DNA of 64,000 bases from Streptomyces sp. JHA26. Its GTDB lineage: Bacteria; Actinomycetota; Actinomycetes; Streptomycetales; Streptomycetaceae. The stretch is from NCBI RefSeq assembly GCF_002005565.1, contig NZ_BDJC01000039.1:1-64000 (forward strand), given 5' to 3'. Of this stretch, positions 51,715 through 60,688 are shown one piece after another. The notes under the pieces were generated by a model. The model worked only from the letters and a program-made list of their open reading frames with translations, made no database searches and was not told the origin of the DNA. The position numbers and the translations under genes were made by a program. Position 1 is the stretch's first letter. Every line of letters begins with the position of its first letter.

Positions 51715-51889
51715 GCAGGTCAGTGCGCAGAACATTTTTACTCGCTCTTGACCCTCCACTTTCTTGTCGTGCCCGCGCCGACGCAACACGATGAGCGGGC
51801 ACTTCGCCACACGCCTCGCCCTCACCCCGCTCTTGCGAAGTGCCAGCCTGCTGAGCGGAGTTCACAAGGCGGACCCCGGAAGGGGGCAC

Positions 51890-53464
51890 ATGAACGGTCT
51901 CGACTGGTCCGTGCTGATCGGCTACTTCGCCGTGATGGTGGCGATCGGCGTCTGGTCGCACAAACGCGTGGACAACGTCAGCGACTTCTTCACGGCCGGC
52001 GGCAGGATGCCCTGGTGGCTGTCCGGCATCTCGCACCACATGTCGGGCTACAGCGCGGTGATGTTCACCGGGTACGCGGGCATCGCCTACACCTACGGCG
52101 TCACGTCCTTCGTCACCTGGTCGTTCCCCATCGCCCTGGGCATCGCCGTCGGGTCGAAGCTGTTCGCGCCGCGCATCAACCGGCTGCGTTCACGGCTCCA
52201 CGTGGCCTCTCCGCTGGAGTACCTGAAGAACCGCTACAACCTGCCGACCCAGCAGGCCCTGGCCTGGTCCGGCATGCTGCTGAAGATCGTGGACGTCGCC
52301 GCGAAGTGGGCGGCCATCGCCACGCTGCTGTCGGTCTTCACCGGCATCTCCCTCAACCAGGGCATCCTGATCACCGGCGTCATCACGGGCATCTACTGCA
52401 CGATCGGCGGCCTGTGGGCCGACGCGCTGACCGAGCTGGGACAGTTCGTCATCCAACTGCTGGCCGGTGTCGCGATGTTCGTGGCCGTCGTCATGAAACT
52501 CGGCGACCACGGCGGCTTCTTCGGCGTCTGGGACGAGCCCGCCCTCCAGGGTCACGGCAAGCCGCTGGTCGGCCCCTACGGGACGGTGTTCCTGCTCGCC
52601 TTCCTCTTCATCAAGCTCTTCGAGTACAACGGCGGCATGCTCAACCAGGCCCAGCGCTACATGGCCACGAGCAACGCCCGCGAGGCCGCGCGGTCGGCGC
52701 GGCTGTCGGCGGTGCTGTGGCTGGTCTGGCCCGTGGTGCTGTTCTTCCCGATGTGGATGTCGCCGCTGCTGGTGGAGTCGCAGAAGCCGGACGGCTCCGA
52801 CTCCTACGGCCTGATGACCGAACAGCTCCTTCCGCACGGCCTGCTCGGCCTGGTCATCGTCGGCTTCTTCTCGCACACCATGGCCATGTGCTCCTCGGAC
52901 GCCAACGCCATCGCGGCCGTCTTCACCCGGGACGTGGCACCGGTCGTGTCGGCGCGGGCGAGGGCCTGGGGCGAGCGGTCCGGGCTGGTGGCGGCGCGGG
53001 TGACGACGGTCGTCTTCCTCGCCCTGTCCATGGCGGTGGCCACGCAGGTCAACTCGCCGGCGTTCAAGGACATCATCACCGTCGTCATCAAGTGGGTCGC
53101 CGGCCTGATGGGCCCGATCGCGATCCCGATGATGCTCGGCCTGCTGCGGCCCTTCCGCCGCTCGGGACCGACGGCCGCGCTCACCAGCTGGGCGGCCGGC
53201 CTGTTCGCCTTCTGGCTGGTCAACTACCCGATCAGCTGGAACGTCGAGGGCGGGGTGCCGCTGGAGTACCAGGTGTCCGTCCCGCTGGCGGTCTCGCTGG
53301 TCCTGTACGTCGTCGTCGGCTACCTGAAGCCGGAGGACACCCCGGAGCGGCTCGCGATCATCGAGCGCGTCAACACGGACGACGACGCCTCCGGAGCGGC
53401 GGCGGTCCCGACGCCCGCGCAGGACAGGGACGACACGGTGGGCCGGACGCGGGTGAAGGACTAG
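51890..53464 (+). CDS. Sodium:solute symporter (SSS family)
   Basis: A 524-residue permease with 13-14 spans. It starts 'MNGLDWSVLIGYFAVMVAIG', the first LeuT-fold helix, and has the SSS hallmarks 'DFFTAGGRMPWWLSGISHHM' (near 40), 'YSAVMFTGYAGIAYTYG' and 'YLKNRYNLPTQQALAWSGML', with 'GFFSHTMAMCSSDANAIAAV' near residue 325 contributing Na+ ligands. The gene may import a sugar, organic acid or urea-like solute with Na+; closest in form to the galactose/inositol-type SGLT group. ATG at 51890 has GGAAGGGGG 4-5 bases upstream; the frame is open further upstream without a good site. Confidence 0.93.
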   Translation: MNGLDWSVLIGYFAVMVAIGVWSHKRVDNVSDFFTAGGRMPWWLSGISHHMSGYSAVMFTGYAGIAYTYGVTSFVTWSFPIALGIAVGSKLFAPRINRLRSRLHVASPLEYLKNRYNLPTQQALAWSGMLLKIVDVAAKWAAIATLLSVFTGISLNQGILITGVITGIYCTIGGLWADALTELGQFVIQLLAGVAMFVAVVMKLGDHGGFFGVWDEPALQGHGKPLVGPYGTVFLLAFLFIKLFEYNGGMLNQAQRYMATSNAREAARSARLSAVLWLVWPVVLFFPMWMSPLLVESQKPDGSDSYGLMTEQLLPHGLLGLVIVGFFSHTMAMCSSDANAIAAVFTRDVAPVVSARARAWGERSGLVAARVTTVVFLALSMAVATQVNSPAFKDIITVVIKWVAGLMGPIAIPMMLGLLRPFRRSGPTAALTSWAAGLFAFWLVNYPISWNVEGGVPLEYQVSVPLAVSLVLYVVVGYLKPEDTPERLAIIERVNTDDDASGAAAVPTPAQDRDDTVGRTRVKD

Positions 53465-53479: not shown

Positions 53480-54595
53480 TCACGCCCTGGGGTACCTCGC
53501 CAGCCAGCCCGGCGACGAGCCCGCCGGACCGTGCAGGGCGGGGCTCTGGGTCATCTCCATCGCGAAGTCGTCGGCCAGTTCCAGGATCGTCGGACGGCCC
53601 TCCAGCTCGGCCAGCCAGGCCGGCGGGAGGGCCGTCTCGCCGTGCAGGGCGCCGAGCAGTCCGCCCGTCAGCGCGCCGGTCGCGGCGGAGGACCCGCCGT
53701 GGTTCACGGCGAGCCGCAGGCCGTGCCGTACGTCCTCGGCGACGAGGGCGCAGTACACGGCGGCGGCCACCAGCCCCTCCGCCGTGCCCCCGCCGGCCAG
53801 CTCGGCGACCCGGGCCGCCGTCGGGAGCCCCTGCCGTACCGCGCCCAGCGCGTGCTGCAGGGCGGCCGACACCGGTTCGTGCCCGGGGCGCGCGGCGAGC
53901 AGCGCCAGCGCCCGCTGCACGGCCGGGTCCAGGCTCTCCCCGCGCGCCAGCCCGTGCACGACCACGGCGTACGCGCCCGCCGCCAGGTAGCCGGTGGGGT
54001 GGCCGTGGGTCTGCGCGGCGCACTCCACGGCGAGCTGGGCGACCAGGTGCGGCTCCCAGCCGACCAGCAGCCCGAACGGCGCCGACCGGGCGGCCGCCTC
54101 GGCCCCGCGCTCACCGGGGTTCTTGGGCGCCTCGGGGGTGCCCATGGTCTCGTCGCCGAGCCCGAGCAGCAGCGCGCGGGTGGGGTCGCGCCGGGCGTAC
54201 AGCCACTCCTCGCGGGCCAGCCAGCCGTCCTCCTCGCGCCGCAGGTCGGGCCCCCAGTCGCGCTGGGTGGCGGCCCAGCGCCGGTACGCCCGGTGCAGGT
54301 CGGTCGGCGGGTGCCAGGCCCCGGTGTCCCGCCGCACCTGGGCGCGGATCAGCCCGTCGACGGAGAACAGGGTGAGCTGCGTGAGGTGGGTGACGGCGCC
54401 GCGCCGCCCGTAGGCGGGGGCGAGGTCGGCCGGGCCCTCGGGTCCGTGCGCCTCCGCGATGGCGTCGAGGCCCATCCGGTCGACGGGCGCCCCGAAGGCG
54501 TCCCCGACGGCCACGCCGAGCAGCGTCCCGCGCACCCGGCTGCGGAAGTCCTGCTGCTCCGCACGCCCCCAGACGGCGCCGGCTGTCCCGCCCAC
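53480..54595 (-). CDS. ADP-ribosylglycohydrolase family protein, apparently catalytically degenerate
   Basis: A 371-residue all-helical protein of the DraG/ADPRH fold. 'VRGTLLGVAVGDAFGAPVDR' (residues 21-40) is the family opening and 'TQLTLFSVDGLIRAQVRR' (about 72-89) is well kept. The metal-binding residues are not: the N-terminal T-D-D-T appears as T69-H-L-T72, and the C-terminal G-G-D-[ST]-D-[ST] appears as G300-G-S-S-A-A305. Loss of both pairs suggests it does not hydrolyse ADP-ribose bonds and may bind instead. GTG at 54595 has GGAGGGGGG 5 bases upstream; an in-frame GTG at 54622 also exists. Convergent with the symporter, 15 bp between stops. Confidence 0.88.
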   Translation of the reverse strand: MGGTAGAVWGRAEQQDFRSRVRGTLLGVAVGDAFGAPVDRMGLDAIAEAHGPEGPADLAPAYGRRGAVTHLTQLTLFSVDGLIRAQVRRDTGAWHPPTDLHRAYRRWAATQRDWGPDLRREEDGWLAREEWLYARRDPTRALLLGLGDETMGTPEAPKNPGERGAEAAARSAPFGLLVGWEPHLVAQLAVECAAQTHGHPTGYLAAGAYAVVVHGLARGESLDPAVQRALALLAARPGHEPVSAALQHALGAVRQGLPTAARVAELAGGGTAEGLVAAAVYCALVAEDVRHGLRLAVNHGGSSAATGALTGGLLGALHGETALPPAWLAELEGRPTILELADDFAMEMTQSPALHGPAGSSPGWLARYPRA

Positions 54596-54786
54596 CTCGA
54601 CCCCCCTCCGCACCGCCCACACCGCCGTCCGTACGTACGACGTCCAGCACTGTATGCGAACAGAAGTGGTCGGTCAGGGCCGGAACCGTGTGGAAACGTT
54701 CACGCGCGGCCGCACACCTCGCGGCAGCAGTGGAGGTGCGGCCGCCGTCGGAGCCGCGCCGGGCTTGTTGCGGGAGACCGTCCGGG

Positions 54787-55221
54787 TCACGTCCGGCCAC
54801 GACCCGGTGGGAGTTCGGCCCAGACGATCTTGGCGGGGGCCGGCCCCTCGTCGACGCCCCATCGGTCCGCGTACGCCGCCACGATGCGCAGACCGCGCCC
54901 GCCCTCCCCGTCCTCGGCGGCCGGGGAGTGGAGACGCGGGACCCGGTCGCCCCGGGCGTCCGTGACCTCGACGCGGAGGGCGCCGTCGGGGAGCAGGCGC
55001 AGGGCCAGCCGGAAGTCCCGCCCCGGCACCCGGCCGTGCAGCACCGCGTTCGCCGCCAGCTCGGCGACGACCTGGACCGCCTCCCCCGACGGCACGCCCC
55101 AGTCGGCGAGTTGGCGTTCGGCGAGCAGGCGCGCGAGCCGGGCGCCCCTCCGCGTCGAGGACAACTGGACCGCGAAGTGCGGTGCGTTCGGGGTGGCGCA
55201 CAGGGCCGATTTCTCCATCAC
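54787..55221 (-). CDS. RsbW-like HATPase_c protein (anti-sigma/regulatory kinase-like)
   Basis: A 144-residue HATPase_c_2 domain. It has the N-box 'VVAELAANAVLHGRVPGRDF' (with the catalytic-Mg Asn), the G1 box 'RVEVTDARGDRVP' and G2 'GGRGLRIVAAYADRWGV'. The protein stands alone with no receiver or phosphatase domain, as in RsbW and SpoIIAB. It lies divergently next to an XRE/DUF397 pair, which is the arrangement seen at whiJ and abaA loci in S. coelicolor. ATG ATG at 55221 start. Its partner could be the XRE protein. Confidence 0.92.
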   Translation of the reverse strand: MMEKSALCATPNAPHFAVQLSSTRRGARLARLLAERQLADWGVPSGEAVQVVAELAANAVLHGRVPGRDFRLALRLLPDGALRVEVTDARGDRVPRLHSPAAEDGEGGRGLRIVAAYADRWGVDEGPAPAKIVWAELPPGRGRT

Positions 55222-55334: not shown

Positions 55335-56147
55335 GTGGAGGACGAGGAGGCCGCGGCCGTGCTCAAGGCGGTCGGGCGGCAGATCAAGCTGTGGCGGGAG
55401 GCGGCCGGGCTGCGCCAGGCCGAACTGGGAGCCGCCATCGGGTACGGCGAGGACATGGTCTCGTCGGTGGAACGCGGACGGCGGGTGCCCAAGCCCGACT
55501 TCCTGGACAAGGCCGACGAGGTGCTGGGCGCGGGCGGGAAGCTCTCGACCATGAAGGAGGACGTGGAGAAGGCCCGCTACCCGAAGAAGGTGCGGGACCT
55601 CGCCAAGCTGGAGGAGGAGGCGGTCGAGCTGGGCGCCTACGCGGGCCACCACATCCACGGGCTGCTGCAGACCCCCGAGTACGCGCGAGCGTTGTACGCG
55701 ATGCGACGCCCGGCGTACACGGAAGAGGAGGTCGACCGCTACGTGTCCGCCCGTATGGCGCGGAAGACCGTGTTCGAGCGCATCCCCCGGCCCCAGCTCA
55801 CCTTCGTCCAGGAAGAGGTCACGCTACGGCGTCCCCTCGGGGGCAGAATGGTGCTTCGCCAACAGCTCGAACACCTCCTGGAGGTGGGCAGGTTGAGGCA
55901 CGTCGAGATCCAGGTCATGCCGACGGACCGCGAGGATCACGCGGGGATGGCCGGGTCGCTGCGACTGCTCAAGCTCACGGACGGCAAGACGCTCGGGCAT
56001 CTGGAGGCCCAACTGCACAGTCGGCTCGTCAGTGATCCCCGGGACGTCCAGATCCTCGAAATGCGCTATGGAATGATCCGGGCGCAGGCCCTCGCACCCC
56101 GTGAGTCACTGACCTTCATCGAGAAAATCATGGGAGAAGAGACATGA
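55335..56147 (+). CDS. XRE-family regulator with DUF5753 domain (WhiJ-like)
   Basis: A 270-residue protein. The HTH is 'LKAVGRQIKLWREAAGLRQA', 'ELGAAIGYGEDMVSSVERGR' (about residues 10-55), and DUF5753 has 'YAGHHIHGLLQTPEYARALY', 'RPAYTEEEVDRYVSARMARK', 'VLRQQLEHLLEVGRLRHVEI' and 'REDHAGMAGSLRLLKL'. GTG at 55335 has AGGAGGGG 5 bases upstream. It overlaps DUF397 by 4 bp (ATGA) and is divergent from the HATPase, making a complete whiJ-like triad. Likely a developmental or antibiotic-control regulator. Confidence 0.93.
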   Translation: MEDEEAAAVLKAVGRQIKLWREAAGLRQAELGAAIGYGEDMVSSVERGRRVPKPDFLDKADEVLGAGGKLSTMKEDVEKARYPKKVRDLAKLEEEAVELGAYAGHHIHGLLQTPEYARALYAMRRPAYTEEEVDRYVSARMARKTVFERIPRPQLTFVQEEVTLRRPLGGRMVLRQQLEHLLEVGRLRHVEIQVMPTDREDHAGMAGSLRLLKLTDGKTLGHLEAQLHSRLVSDPRDVQILEMRYGMIRAQALAPRESLTFIEKIMGEET

Positions 56148-57558: not shown

Positions 57559-60171
57559 TCAGTCCAGTACCGGCAGCAGCTCCGGCAGGTGCCCGTCCGA
57601 GGCCGTCGCCGCCCGCCGCCGCTCCTCGGGGACCTCGCCGTACAGCGTCGTGCGGGGCCTGGCGGGGCGGCCCGCCGCGTCGGCGACGGCGATCAGGTCC
57701 TTGACGGACTTGTAGGAGCCGTAGGAGGAGCCCGCCATGCGGGAGATCGTCTCCTCCATGAGGGTCCCGCCGAGGTCGTTCGCGCCGGAGCGGAGCATCT
57801 CCGCCGCCCCCTCGGTGCCCAGTTTCACCCAGCTCGTCTGGATGTTGGGGATGTGGGGGTGGAGCAGGAGGCGGGCCATCGCGGTGACCGCGCGGTTGTC
57901 CCGCATGGTGGGTCCGGGCCGGGCGATGCCCGCCAGGTAGACGGGTGCGTTGGTGTGGATGAAGGGCAGCGTCACGAACTCCGTGAAGCCGCCCGTGCGC
58001 TGCTGGATGCCGGCGAGGGTGCGCAGGTGGCCCAGCCAGTGGCGGGGCTGGTCGACGTGGCCGTACATCATCGTGGAGCTCGACCGGATGCCCAGCTCGT
58101 GGGCCGTCTCGACGACCTCGATCCAGGTGGCCGTGGGCAGCTTGCCCTTGGTCAGGATCCAGCGGACCTCGTCGTCGAGGATCTCCGCCGCCGTGCCGGG
58201 GATGGAGTCGAGGCCCGCCTCCTTGGCCGCGGTCAGCCACTCGCGGATCGACATGCCGGTGCGGGTGGCGCCGTTGACGACCTCCATCGGCGAGAAGGCG
58301 TGCACGTGCATGCCGGGGACGCGGGCCTTGACCGCCTTGGCGATGTCGAAGTACGCGGTGCCCGGCAGGTCGGGGTGGATGCCGCCCTGCATGCACACCT
58401 CGACCGCGCCGACCTCCCACGCCTGCTGGGCGCGGTCGGCGACCTGGTCGAGGGAGAGCGTGTAGGCGTCGGCGTCCGTGCGGCGCTGGGCGAAGGCGCA
58501 GAAGCGGCAGCCGGTGTAGCAGACGTTCGTGAAGTTGATGTTCCGCGTGACGATGTACGTCACGTCGTCGCCGACCGTCGAGCGGCGCACGTCGTCGGCC
58601 ACCCGGCACAGGGCGTCCAGCGCCGGGCCGTCGGCGTGCAGCAGGGCGAGGGCCTCGTCGTCGGTGAGCCGCGTCGGGTCGTCGGCCGCCGTGGCCAGCG
58701 CGGCGCGTACGTCGGTGTCGATGCGTTCCGGGGCCATGCCGGGGGCGGCCGCCTCGCGCAGGGCGCCCCAGTCGCCGTACACCTCGTCGAAGTCCTCGCG
58801 GCGGTCCGACGTACGGCCCTCGGTGTCGATGGTGGCGTGCAGGTCGGTGCGGCCGGACGCCTCGAAGACCTCCTCCGGCTCCTGCCACGGACGGCCCCGC
58901 ACCGTCGCGTCCTCGCGCGCGAGGCCCGTGTCCGGGTCGGCGAGCGCGGCCACGTGCGGGCGCAGGCGCGGGTCCAGCCAGGGCTCGCCGCGCCTGACGA
59001 ACTCGGGGTAGACGCAGAGCCGTTCGCGCAGCTCGAAGCCGGCCGTGCGGGACCTCTGCGCCAGCTCCTCGATCTGCGGCCAGGGGCGTTCGGGATTGAC
59101 GTGGTCGATGGTGAGCGGGGAGACGCCGCCCCAGTCGTCGATGCCGGCGCCGATCAGGCGCTCGTACTCGGCGTCCACCAGGTTGGGCGGGGCCTGGAGG
59201 CAGGCGGCCGGGCCCATGATGTGCCGGGCGACGGCCACCGTGGCGACCAGCTCGTCCAGCTCCGCGTCCGGCATGCCGCGCATCGCGGTGTCCGGCTTGG
59301 CGCGGAAGTTCTGGATGATCAGCTCCTGGACGCCGTGGTAGGCGCGGGCGACCTTGCGCAGCGCGAACAGGGACTCGGCGCGTTCCTCGTACGTCTCGCC
59401 GATGCCGATGAGGATGCCGGAGGTGAAGGGGACCGAGGAGCGTCCGGCGTCCTCCAGGACGCGCAGGCGCACGGCCGGTTCCTTGTCCGGGGAGCCGTGG
59501 TGGGGGCCGCCGGGCTCGGACCACAGGCGGGTCGCGGTGGTCTCCAGCATCATGCCCATCGACGGTGCGACCGGCTTGAGCCGCTGGAAGTCCGTCCAGG
59601 TCATGACGCCCGGGTTGAGGTGGGGCAGCAGGCCCGTCTCCTCCAGGATGCGGATCGAGACGGCGCGGACGTAGGCGATCGTGTCGTCGTAGCCGTGCGC
59701 GTCGAGCCACTCGCGGGCCTCGGGCCAGCGGTCCTCGGGCTTGTCGCCGAGGGTGATCAGCGCTTCCTTGCAGCCGAGGGCGGCGCCCTTGCGGGCGATG
59801 TCCAGCACCTCGTCCGGCGACATGAACATCCCGTGCCCGGCCCGGCGCAGCTTGCCGGGGACGGTGACGAAGGTGCAGTAGTGGCACTTGTCCCGGCACA
59901 GGCGGGTGAGGGGGATGAAGACGCTCTTCGAGTAGGTGATGACGCCGGGACGGCCCGCCGCCTCCAGGCCGGCGTCCCGCACCCGCGCGGCGGACGCGGT
60001 GAGGGCGTCGAGGTGCTCGCCGCGGGCCTGGAGCAGCACCGCGGCCTCGGCGACGTCGAGGGCGACACCGTCCCGGGCGCGTTTGAGGGCGCGACGCAGG
60101 GAGTTCTCGGTCGGGCCGGCGGCACCGGCGGAGTCGTCGGGTCCGGTTCCGGGGGTCGCGGGAGTCGTCAT
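57559..60171 (-). CDS. fbiC: F420 biosynthesis FO synthase (CofG-CofH fusion)
   Basis: An 870-residue enzyme that makes the deazaflavin FO, the chromophore of coenzyme F420, from tyrosine and a ribityl-uracil. It has two radical-SAM domains. The first (CofG-like) has its cluster motif at C92-x3-C96-x2-C99 in '[12 protein letters not shown]'. The second (CofH-like) has C551-x3-C555-x2-C558 in '[11 protein letters not shown]'. Length and two-domain order match actinobacterial FbiC. ATG at 60171 is chosen. F420 supports redox enzymes in antibiotic and stress metabolism. No other F420 gene is close. Confidence 0.97.
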
Positions 60172-60688
60172 CCTTCGAGCATACGAGCGCCATGATCGGG
60201 GCGCGGCGCGCGTCACGCTCCCCCACCGGGCGGTTTCCGGCCCTCCATGCGCCGGACCCCTTTCCTCGCACGGGAGTCCACGGCTCCGTACGAGGGTTGC
60301 ACGCATCACCACCGCACCACCCGTGCCATGTCACGCCGGGACCCAGGGCAACGCCCTCGACATCGGCGTCTTCGACGAGCGCGGCACCGACCTGGGCGGC
60401 CGGGGCTTCCCCCATGAGGCTGTCCGGAGAACGCGGGGGCACACGGGACGGGACGGTGAACGGACGATGTCGTCCCCCGCCGGGACCGGGTACCGGGCCG
60501 TGACGGGCGTGACGGTTGTGACGGCCGTCCGGCGCCGGGCGACGGGGTCGAGGGCCGGGGCGGGACCGCCGGCGGTACGGGTGGCCCCGGAGAGGTGAGG
60601 GACCTGTGATCGGCGTCTCCCACGGCTGACGTGGTCGGCATGCACAAGGCAAACTGGCGTAGTTGCTCAGGATGTCTAGGGGGACGGC
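60172..60688. other. 517-bp gap between fbiC and afsR
   Basis: It holds the divergent fbiC and afsR promoter regions. Open frames with high GC occur here but none has a good start site or recognisable product. A segment at about 60340-60430 reads as 'ALDIGVFDERGTDLGGRGF' in one frame, which I could not place and do not call. No strong hairpin is seen. Confidence 0.5.

Follow-up and report, generated by a model that had tools for sequence, protein, structure and literature searches.

An ADP-ribosylhydrolase-family gene of Streptomyces that has lost its active site and remains under purifying selection

The window analysed here, a stretch of 64,000 nucleotides from Streptomyces sp. JHA26, carries at 53480..54595 on the minus strand a degenerate gene of the ADP-ribosylhydrolase (ARH) family, recognised by its open reading frame and translation, its Pfam match (PF03747), its orthologues and the evidence for its start. 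A GTG at 54595 gives a protein of 371 aa, and a GTG further upstream, at 54622, gives one of 380 aa (P0001, ORF 53480..54622, minus strand), whose residue numbering is used throughout. The GTG at 54595, which is residue 10 of P0001, is the likelier start, because GGAGG lies nine bases upstream as a ribosome site and because seven orthologous loci carry an in-frame stop at residue 9, just before this codon. P0001 matches the Pfam family ADP_ribosyl_GH (PF03747) over profile positions 1-286 of 287 with an E-value of 2.1e-59, and its score of 202 bits, against a curated cut-off of 26.2, places it in the superfamily by descent. It stays below the NCBIfam equivalog cut-offs for both DraG (TIGR02662, 61.1 vs 337.05 bits) and Tri1 (NF041672, 29.4 vs 490 bits), and a PADLOC search for defence systems returned no match for the window protein, one intact orthologue and one paralogue, where intact denotes, here and below, orthologues that keep all four metal-binding Asp.

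Among the neighbours, the FO synthase gene (cofGH/fbiC; 57559..60312, minus strand; NCBIfam PRK09234, 1532 bits) is found beside both intact and lost orthologues, no more than 6.5 kb away in 31 of the 36 intact loci and in 84 of the 132 lost ones, and is thus a syntenic, chromosomal anchor rather than a partner. A sodium:solute symporter gene (51764..53464, plus strand; Pfam SSF) ends 15 bases from the stop codon of the ARH gene and accompanies 106 of 132 lost and 7 of 36 intact loci; being convergent, it was ruled out as an operon partner. The HATPase gene upstream on the same strand was likewise rejected in this role, since it occurs in 16 of 132 lost and none of 36 intact loci within flanks of 5 kb. 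Its product, a HATPase-domain protein, is encoded next to a divergent HTH_31/DUF5753 regulator (54787-55221 and 55335-56147), a pairing that is common in Streptomyces and that is not conserved next to the ARH gene.

In place of the motif Glu ... (T/S)DDT ... DxD(S/T) of active ARH/DraG enzymes, the window protein reads D ... THLT ... SSAA. The first pair of metal ligands is lost at residues 78-81 (54380..54391, minus strand), where the alignment with intact orthologues sets THLT opposite TDDT, and the second at residues 309-314 (53681..53698, minus strand), where GGSSAA replaces GGDSDS in the orthologue alignment and phmmer sets GGSSAATG opposite GGDADTTG of DraG. The sequence-only reading of this DNA had held that both Asp pairs are replaced, and this stands: all four metal-binding Asp are absent, for the second motif by the DraG alignment and for both motifs by that with the intact orthologues, and the family alignment it had called for places no Asp at THLT or GGSSAA. 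The losses extend beyond those it had listed, to the catalytic Glu (48), the SKGCG loop (171-175) and the GW..EE motif (278-283), and intact orthologues occur in the same genus. Residue 48 (54479..54481, minus strand), the ARH catalytic Glu and a Glu in 41/41 intact orthologues, is Asp; the adenine- and pyrophosphate-binding loop at residues 171-178 (54089..54112, minus strand) reads ERGAEAAA in place of SKGCGAVM; and in the segment 277-284 (53771..53794, minus strand) the GW..EE motif is gone, with W279 changed to G and E283 to G. Within the loop (SKGCG to ERGAE, residues 171-175), Glu175 occupies the place of the pyrophosphate-contacting Gly, a position matched to Cys129-Gly130 of ARH1 through alignment by motif, so that both this Gly and the adenine loop of active ARH/DraG enzymes are missing. 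The Gly and the His that hold the pyrophosphate in ARH1 and ARH3 are absolutely conserved, and mutation of one metal ligand is enough to abolish the activity of these enzymes (PMC6309922). By all residue tests made, the window protein is almost certainly dead as a hydrolase. The loss of the Asp residues is not a sequencing error, because 132 of the 137 aligned sequences (rows) that, with the window protein included, form its subclade have His at residue 79, and 136 of them have Glu at residue 175.

An AlphaFold model computed from 78 sequences (the window protein, 20 orthologues and 57 distant viral relatives) reached a pLDDT of 90.8 and a pTM of 0.92; a first model, from 58 close orthologues, was poor (pLDDT 56.4, pTM 0.63) and was left unused. 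The predicted structure shows the all-helical ARH fold, and its best VIA-align partners include mouse ARH3 (Z 36.5), MJ1187 (36.3), Tri1 (35.5) and DraG (34.2), the absence of a family from this list being no evidence against likeness. The fold is thus retained in the model, a check that the sequence-only reading had proposed (pLDDT 90.8, Z 36.5 to ARH3). DraG, ARH1 and ARH3 share this fold (Z 33.4 to 36.5) and differ from the window protein as active dinuclear-metal enzymes. Subunits of the Orf2971-FtsHi motor (8xks) and of a trypanosome mitoribosomal assembly intermediate (6sga), for which the list gives titles and Z, also matched, so that the ARH fold appears to be used inside complexes; a literature search on ARH subunits of the chloroplast motor and the trypanosome mitoribosome found nothing.

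Of 199 Streptomyces genomes, 196 have a match to the gene; four of these best matches are weak (E 1e-70 to 1e-90) and may be the paralogue described below. At E 1e-20, 103 of the 119 genomes of the order gave a match, 102 of these belonging to the genus of the window; none of the 14 genomes of family f3 in this sample had one, and the single f2 genome has a relative of 39% identity. A sample of 246 genomes of the phylum gave four matches outside the genus, at 32-43% identity, all four with TDDT/SDDT and DSDS, and all 80 nearest records listed are from Streptomyces. The gene was read in 287 loci, giving 266 distinct sequences with paralogues included and duplicates counted once; seven orthologues whose reading was cut short by the in-frame stop at residue 9, ahead of the start, were left out of the rows. 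Among the 183 genomes with a classified orthologue, 41 have an intact gene, 139 belong to one lost clade (73 in the subclade of the window, hereafter the His79 subclade, and 66 outside it) and three have decayed separately. The nearest-relative records were classified in 77 of 80 cases, and 77/77 fall in the His79 subclade, as expected for records that came from a search for nearest relatives. The 196 matched Streptomyces genomes contribute 118 classified orthologues (51 in the His79 subclade, 42 elsewhere in the lost clade, 23 intact and two separate). As sampling was uneven, with best matches taken first and distant ones then chosen deliberately, these proportions of intact and lost genes are not frequencies.

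All 41 intact rows also keep Glu48 and SKGCG, and 40 of them keep Trp279. The 202 rows of the lost clade besides the window retain none of the four Asp in 187 cases and one Asp in 15, while Glu48 is kept in four, SKGCG in none, Trp279 in one and Glu283 in 31. Intact Streptomyces orthologues (for instance L304 and L219) are orthologous to the window gene, often lie beside the FO synthase gene and share with the lost ones 160 alignment columns that have the same residue in at least 95%; they keep E, TDDT, SKGCG, GW..EE (40/41) and DSDS, a set close to that described for ARH1 (E, SDDT, DSDS; PMC6309922), and are presumably active. To call the window gene a paralogue, as had been proposed, is therefore imprecise, since other Streptomyces carry the very same gene with its site intact, in many cases still next to the FO synthase gene (cofGH/fbiC). 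Furthermore, 62 residues common to intact (90%) and lost (95%) orthologues differ from the residue that is usual in 10 paralogues or in the 57 viral relatives. As the latter were collected with patterns including DDTQM or KGCG.VMR, the intact motifs of the viral relatives are no free test.

Active-site columns were left out of both trees. In a fasttree phylogeny of 263 rows the 203 lost rows form one clade with a support of 99, which points to one main loss, and in an IQ-TREE phylogeny of 79 rows, 31 of them from the lost clade, this clade has a support of 100/98. The intact orthologues branch off as a paraphyletic base, and every outgroup is intact too apart from L165, a degenerate member of another subgroup, so that the ancestor was probably intact. 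Three rows, each from a single assembly, have decayed apart from the lost clade: L251 keeps one N-terminal and one C-terminal Asp and has no loop; L271 has lost one Asp, the Trp and a Glu; and L238 has lost the Glu and the loop and still retains its four Asp, which indicates that the order of loss differs between lineages. The genome of L238 is 81% complete with 5% contamination, and this row is the sister of the lost clade in fasttree and one step deeper in IQ-TREE. Mapped on a tree of the FO synthase, the state of the gene changes five times over 132 loci, or three times without L251 and L271; on its own gene tree it changes three times.

Constraint was gauged by pN/pS, from pairwise counts over disjoint pairs with bootstrap rather than from a codon model on a tree, in three groups of rows, namely intact (41), lost but outside the His79 subclade (66) and within that subclade (136). 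The subclade is defined by the tree, as splitting by the letter at residue 79 would be circular for that residue. Only the loop 171-178 and GW..EE are free tests of relaxed constraint. In these three groups, respectively, pN/pS is 0.07, 0.66 and 0.38 for the loop and 0.19, 0.78 and 0.48 for GW..EE; for the metal sites it is 0, 0.91 and 0.32, the intact value of 0 holding by construction for four of the six positions, as the four Asp define this group. Measured against synonymous change, the former substrate-binding segments thus evolve some 2.5 to 9 times faster in the lost clade than in intact orthologues, and a simpler pooling of the same rows gives a rise from 0.18 to 0.54 between intact and lost for active-site columns, against 0.24 to 0.26 for the rest. 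All non-active sites together have 0.25, 0.29 and 0.20, and each of the 243 rows of the three groups has an open frame from residue 30 or earlier to residue 355 or later. At residues 89-145 (54188..54358, minus strand), which hold the orthologue-specific conserved motifs DTGAWHPPTD, WGPD.R and GWL..EWLY, pN/pS falls from 0.22 in intact to 0.14 and 0.08 in lost rows outside and inside the His79 subclade, and for the C-terminal segment EGRPTILELADDFAMEMTQSPALH (residues 341-364; 53531..53602, minus strand), conserved in intact and lost orthologues, it is 0.14, 0.14 and 0.08, tightening in the subclade of the window. Constraint has therefore left the active site; elsewhere it has changed little, and it is tighter on residues 89-145. 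Loss of catalytic residues in a gene under purifying selection, the mark of an ARH-family pseudoenzyme, is what is found here.

Because the active site is lost, other parts of the protein are still constrained and the ARH fold is kept in the model, the explanation that we favour, and consider probable, is that of a maintained pseudoenzyme acting by protein contact through surfaces older than the loss; that contact is its mode of action seems to us, taken by itself, rather likely. The ancestral Streptomyces protein would have been an active ADP-ribosylhydrolase with a binuclear metal centre and an ADP-ribose pocket. Both would have disappeared in one event at the root of a large clade, with partial losses on three further occasions outside it. 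The loss would have been tolerated because selection maintained another, non-catalytic task of the protein, and this remaining task would be protein-protein contact, as scaffold, adaptor or regulator. The contact surfaces would be the orthologue-specific ones near residues 89-145, 187-204 and 341-364, which were already conserved before the loss. Against a scaffold speaks that no neighbour is conserved as an operon partner, and against maintenance that non-active sites outside the His79 subclade are slightly less constrained than in intact orthologues (0.29 vs 0.25); moreover, conserved residues elsewhere could serve fold stability alone.

The fixing anew of His79 (132/137) and Glu175 (136/137) points to a reused pocket over a bare scaffold, and, with Gly173 and His208 also nearly or fully fixed in the subclade of the window, makes a rebuilt pocket the main rival of the pseudoenzyme reading. 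The subclade would then have assembled a polar site from Asp48, His79, Glu175 and His206/His208 for another ligand or a single metal, to which we give a real, if minor, chance. Asp48 (121/136), His208 (135/136) and Gly173 (136/136) fit it, as does the drop of metal-site pN/pS from 0.91 outside the subclade to 0.32 inside; in ADPRHL1 of vertebrates, too, the altered former active site is required (PMC7390403). As a class, however, these positions evolve under weaker constraint than the remainder of the protein (0.32 and 0.38 vs 0.20), and at four of the six metal positions the usual residues in the subclade are Leu, Pro, Ala and Ala. A fuller version, in which the pocket of the dead enzyme drifted almost freely before being rebuilt in the subclade (Asp48-His79-Glu175-His206/208) for a new ligand or a single metal, has a smaller chance still; if true, an enzyme, its near-neutral drift and a new function would all be alive within one genus. 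The near-neutral metal positions in lost rows outside the subclade (0.91) could also reflect slow decay of a useless gene, and in one genome (G236) the match lies in two overlapping frames, a possible frameshift. This reading is already disfavoured and, we think, very improbable, given that all 202 classified lost rows besides the window have an open frame, that the seven further rows are interrupted before the start only and that constraint on the remainder of the protein is about what it is in intact orthologues (0.29 and 0.20 vs 0.25).

The sequence-only reading had thought of a binding-only protein, perhaps an ADP-ribose sensor that binds ADP-ribose or an ADP-ribosylated target without cutting. 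As to catalysis this agrees with the residues; as to ADP-ribose it does not, since the binding elements known from ARH1 and ARH3 (PMC6309922) are largely lost. The fold is kept in the model; His206 of THGHP, aligned by motif with the pyrophosphate-contacting His of ARH enzymes, persists in 135/136 lost rows inside and 66/66 outside the His79 subclade; Thr81 and Arg179 persist in 202/202 lost rows; and, by their titles, two structures of ARH3 single metal-site mutants (7l9h, 7l9i) have ADP-ribose bound. SKGCG, on the other hand, survives in none of the 202 lost rows, the second-loop Gly (148), GW..EE and the acidic ligands are lost and released from constraint, and Glu175 would be expected to repel the pyrophosphate; in the 66 lost rows outside the subclade, former ADP-ribose-binding positions change at 0.66-0.91 of the synonymous rate, with metal positions near neutral. 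As Gly has become Glu175 (136/137) and the loops are gone, though the His is kept, canonical ADP-ribose binding is unlikely, though not impossible, and a sensor is accordingly a reading that we regard as doubtful. Somewhat less doubtful, though still improbable, is a regulator of the ADP-ribosylation machinery, which would bind an active ARH paralogue or a transferase and tune it as non-enzymatic immunity proteins do. The window gene is one of eight PF03747 copies in its own genome, and the seven others comprise five with (T/S)DDT and DxD(S/T), one with DDDL and DTDS and one partly degenerate copy; protein-protein contact can also block bacterial ART toxins (PMC11699363, PMC10789625). No transferase was seen among the five window neighbours scanned, of which four have a Pfam match and the fifth none, and searches of the same genome for DarT and Arr-ms gave no match. 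Finally, the protein might still hydrolyse by another chemistry, since the macrodomain hydrolase SCO6735 is active without the catalytic Lys/Glu pair of its class (PMC7050489, PMC9411070). Here, the catalytic Glu and the substrate loop have gone along with the metal ligands, and one metal-ligand change is enough to kill ARH1 or ARH3 (PMC6309922), which leaves this with hardly any probability.

A maintained pseudoenzyme of this kind is reminiscent of vertebrate ADPRHL1 (ARH2), an ARH-family member that has lost metal-binding Asp and substrate-binding residues, yet is conserved and needed (PMC7390403), being a cardiac pseudoenzyme whose former active site, though altered, is needed for heart growth (PMC7390403). 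ADPRHL1 differs in being vertebrate and heart-specific, in keeping one Asp in mammals and in having a conserved di-arginine loop, whereas the window protein has none of the four Asp and its loss arose inside Streptomyces, with intact orthologues in the same genus. Shared loss by descent is unlikely, and a separate origin is favoured because the lineage that lost the site is nested among intact Streptomyces orthologues. Among the 25 of 1,986 papers listed in a literature search for such proteins there were papers on ADPRHL1 and, by title, none on a bacterial pseudo-ARH. The ARH-type immunity proteins Tri1 and Lmo0067 likewise have the ARH fold seen in the window model. Immunity proteins of the Tri1 type act by a mechanism of blocking. 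A title in a reference list calls such proteins bifunctional immunity proteins, and the immunity conferred by BAH depends on the BAH hydrolase site (PMC11699363). In contrast to the window gene, among whose scanned neighbours no toxin was found, immunity proteins counter an ADP-ribosylating toxin.

For S. coelicolor we take the FO synthase to be SCO4429, and, since its number lies near this one, SCO4435 is probably the orthologue of the window gene. SCO4435 is listed as an uncharacterised DraG/ARH homologue in PMC5087735 and PMC9411070, whose passages on it mention no loss of catalytic residues; SCO5809, from the same DraG-like list, is active on phosphate-linked ADP-ribose (PMC11833690). A near-universal Streptomyces gene would thus, judged by its sequence, be no ADP-ribose eraser in a large part of the genus, while published work includes its probable S. 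coelicolor copy among the erasers (PMC5087735, PMC9411070), which bears on the count of hydrolases behind the argument for a lively ADP-ribosylation metabolism in Streptomyces. Furthermore, one gene of one genus exists in intact, decaying, dead and possibly rebuilt versions, and this natural series makes a non-catalytic function of ARH proteins testable by orthologue swaps.

Other ARH genes vary as well. An intact chromosomal paralogue of about 44-52% identity (L154, L156-L164 and the fragments L180 and L181) occurs in 12 of the 102 matched genomes of the genus; in the eight of these whose main copy was classified, that copy is lost in 8/8, too few to claim compensation by the paralogue. The degenerate L165 (G294:C1:8441290-8442333) lies near a chromosome end and has ETLG, ASVSTQ and no DxD. 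In the genome of the window, a cluster of three PF03747 genes includes the partly degenerate L008 (G000:C11:151036-152013), which keeps SDDA but lacks the N-terminal Glu and whose C-terminal motif, SRVADS, has lost its first Asp.
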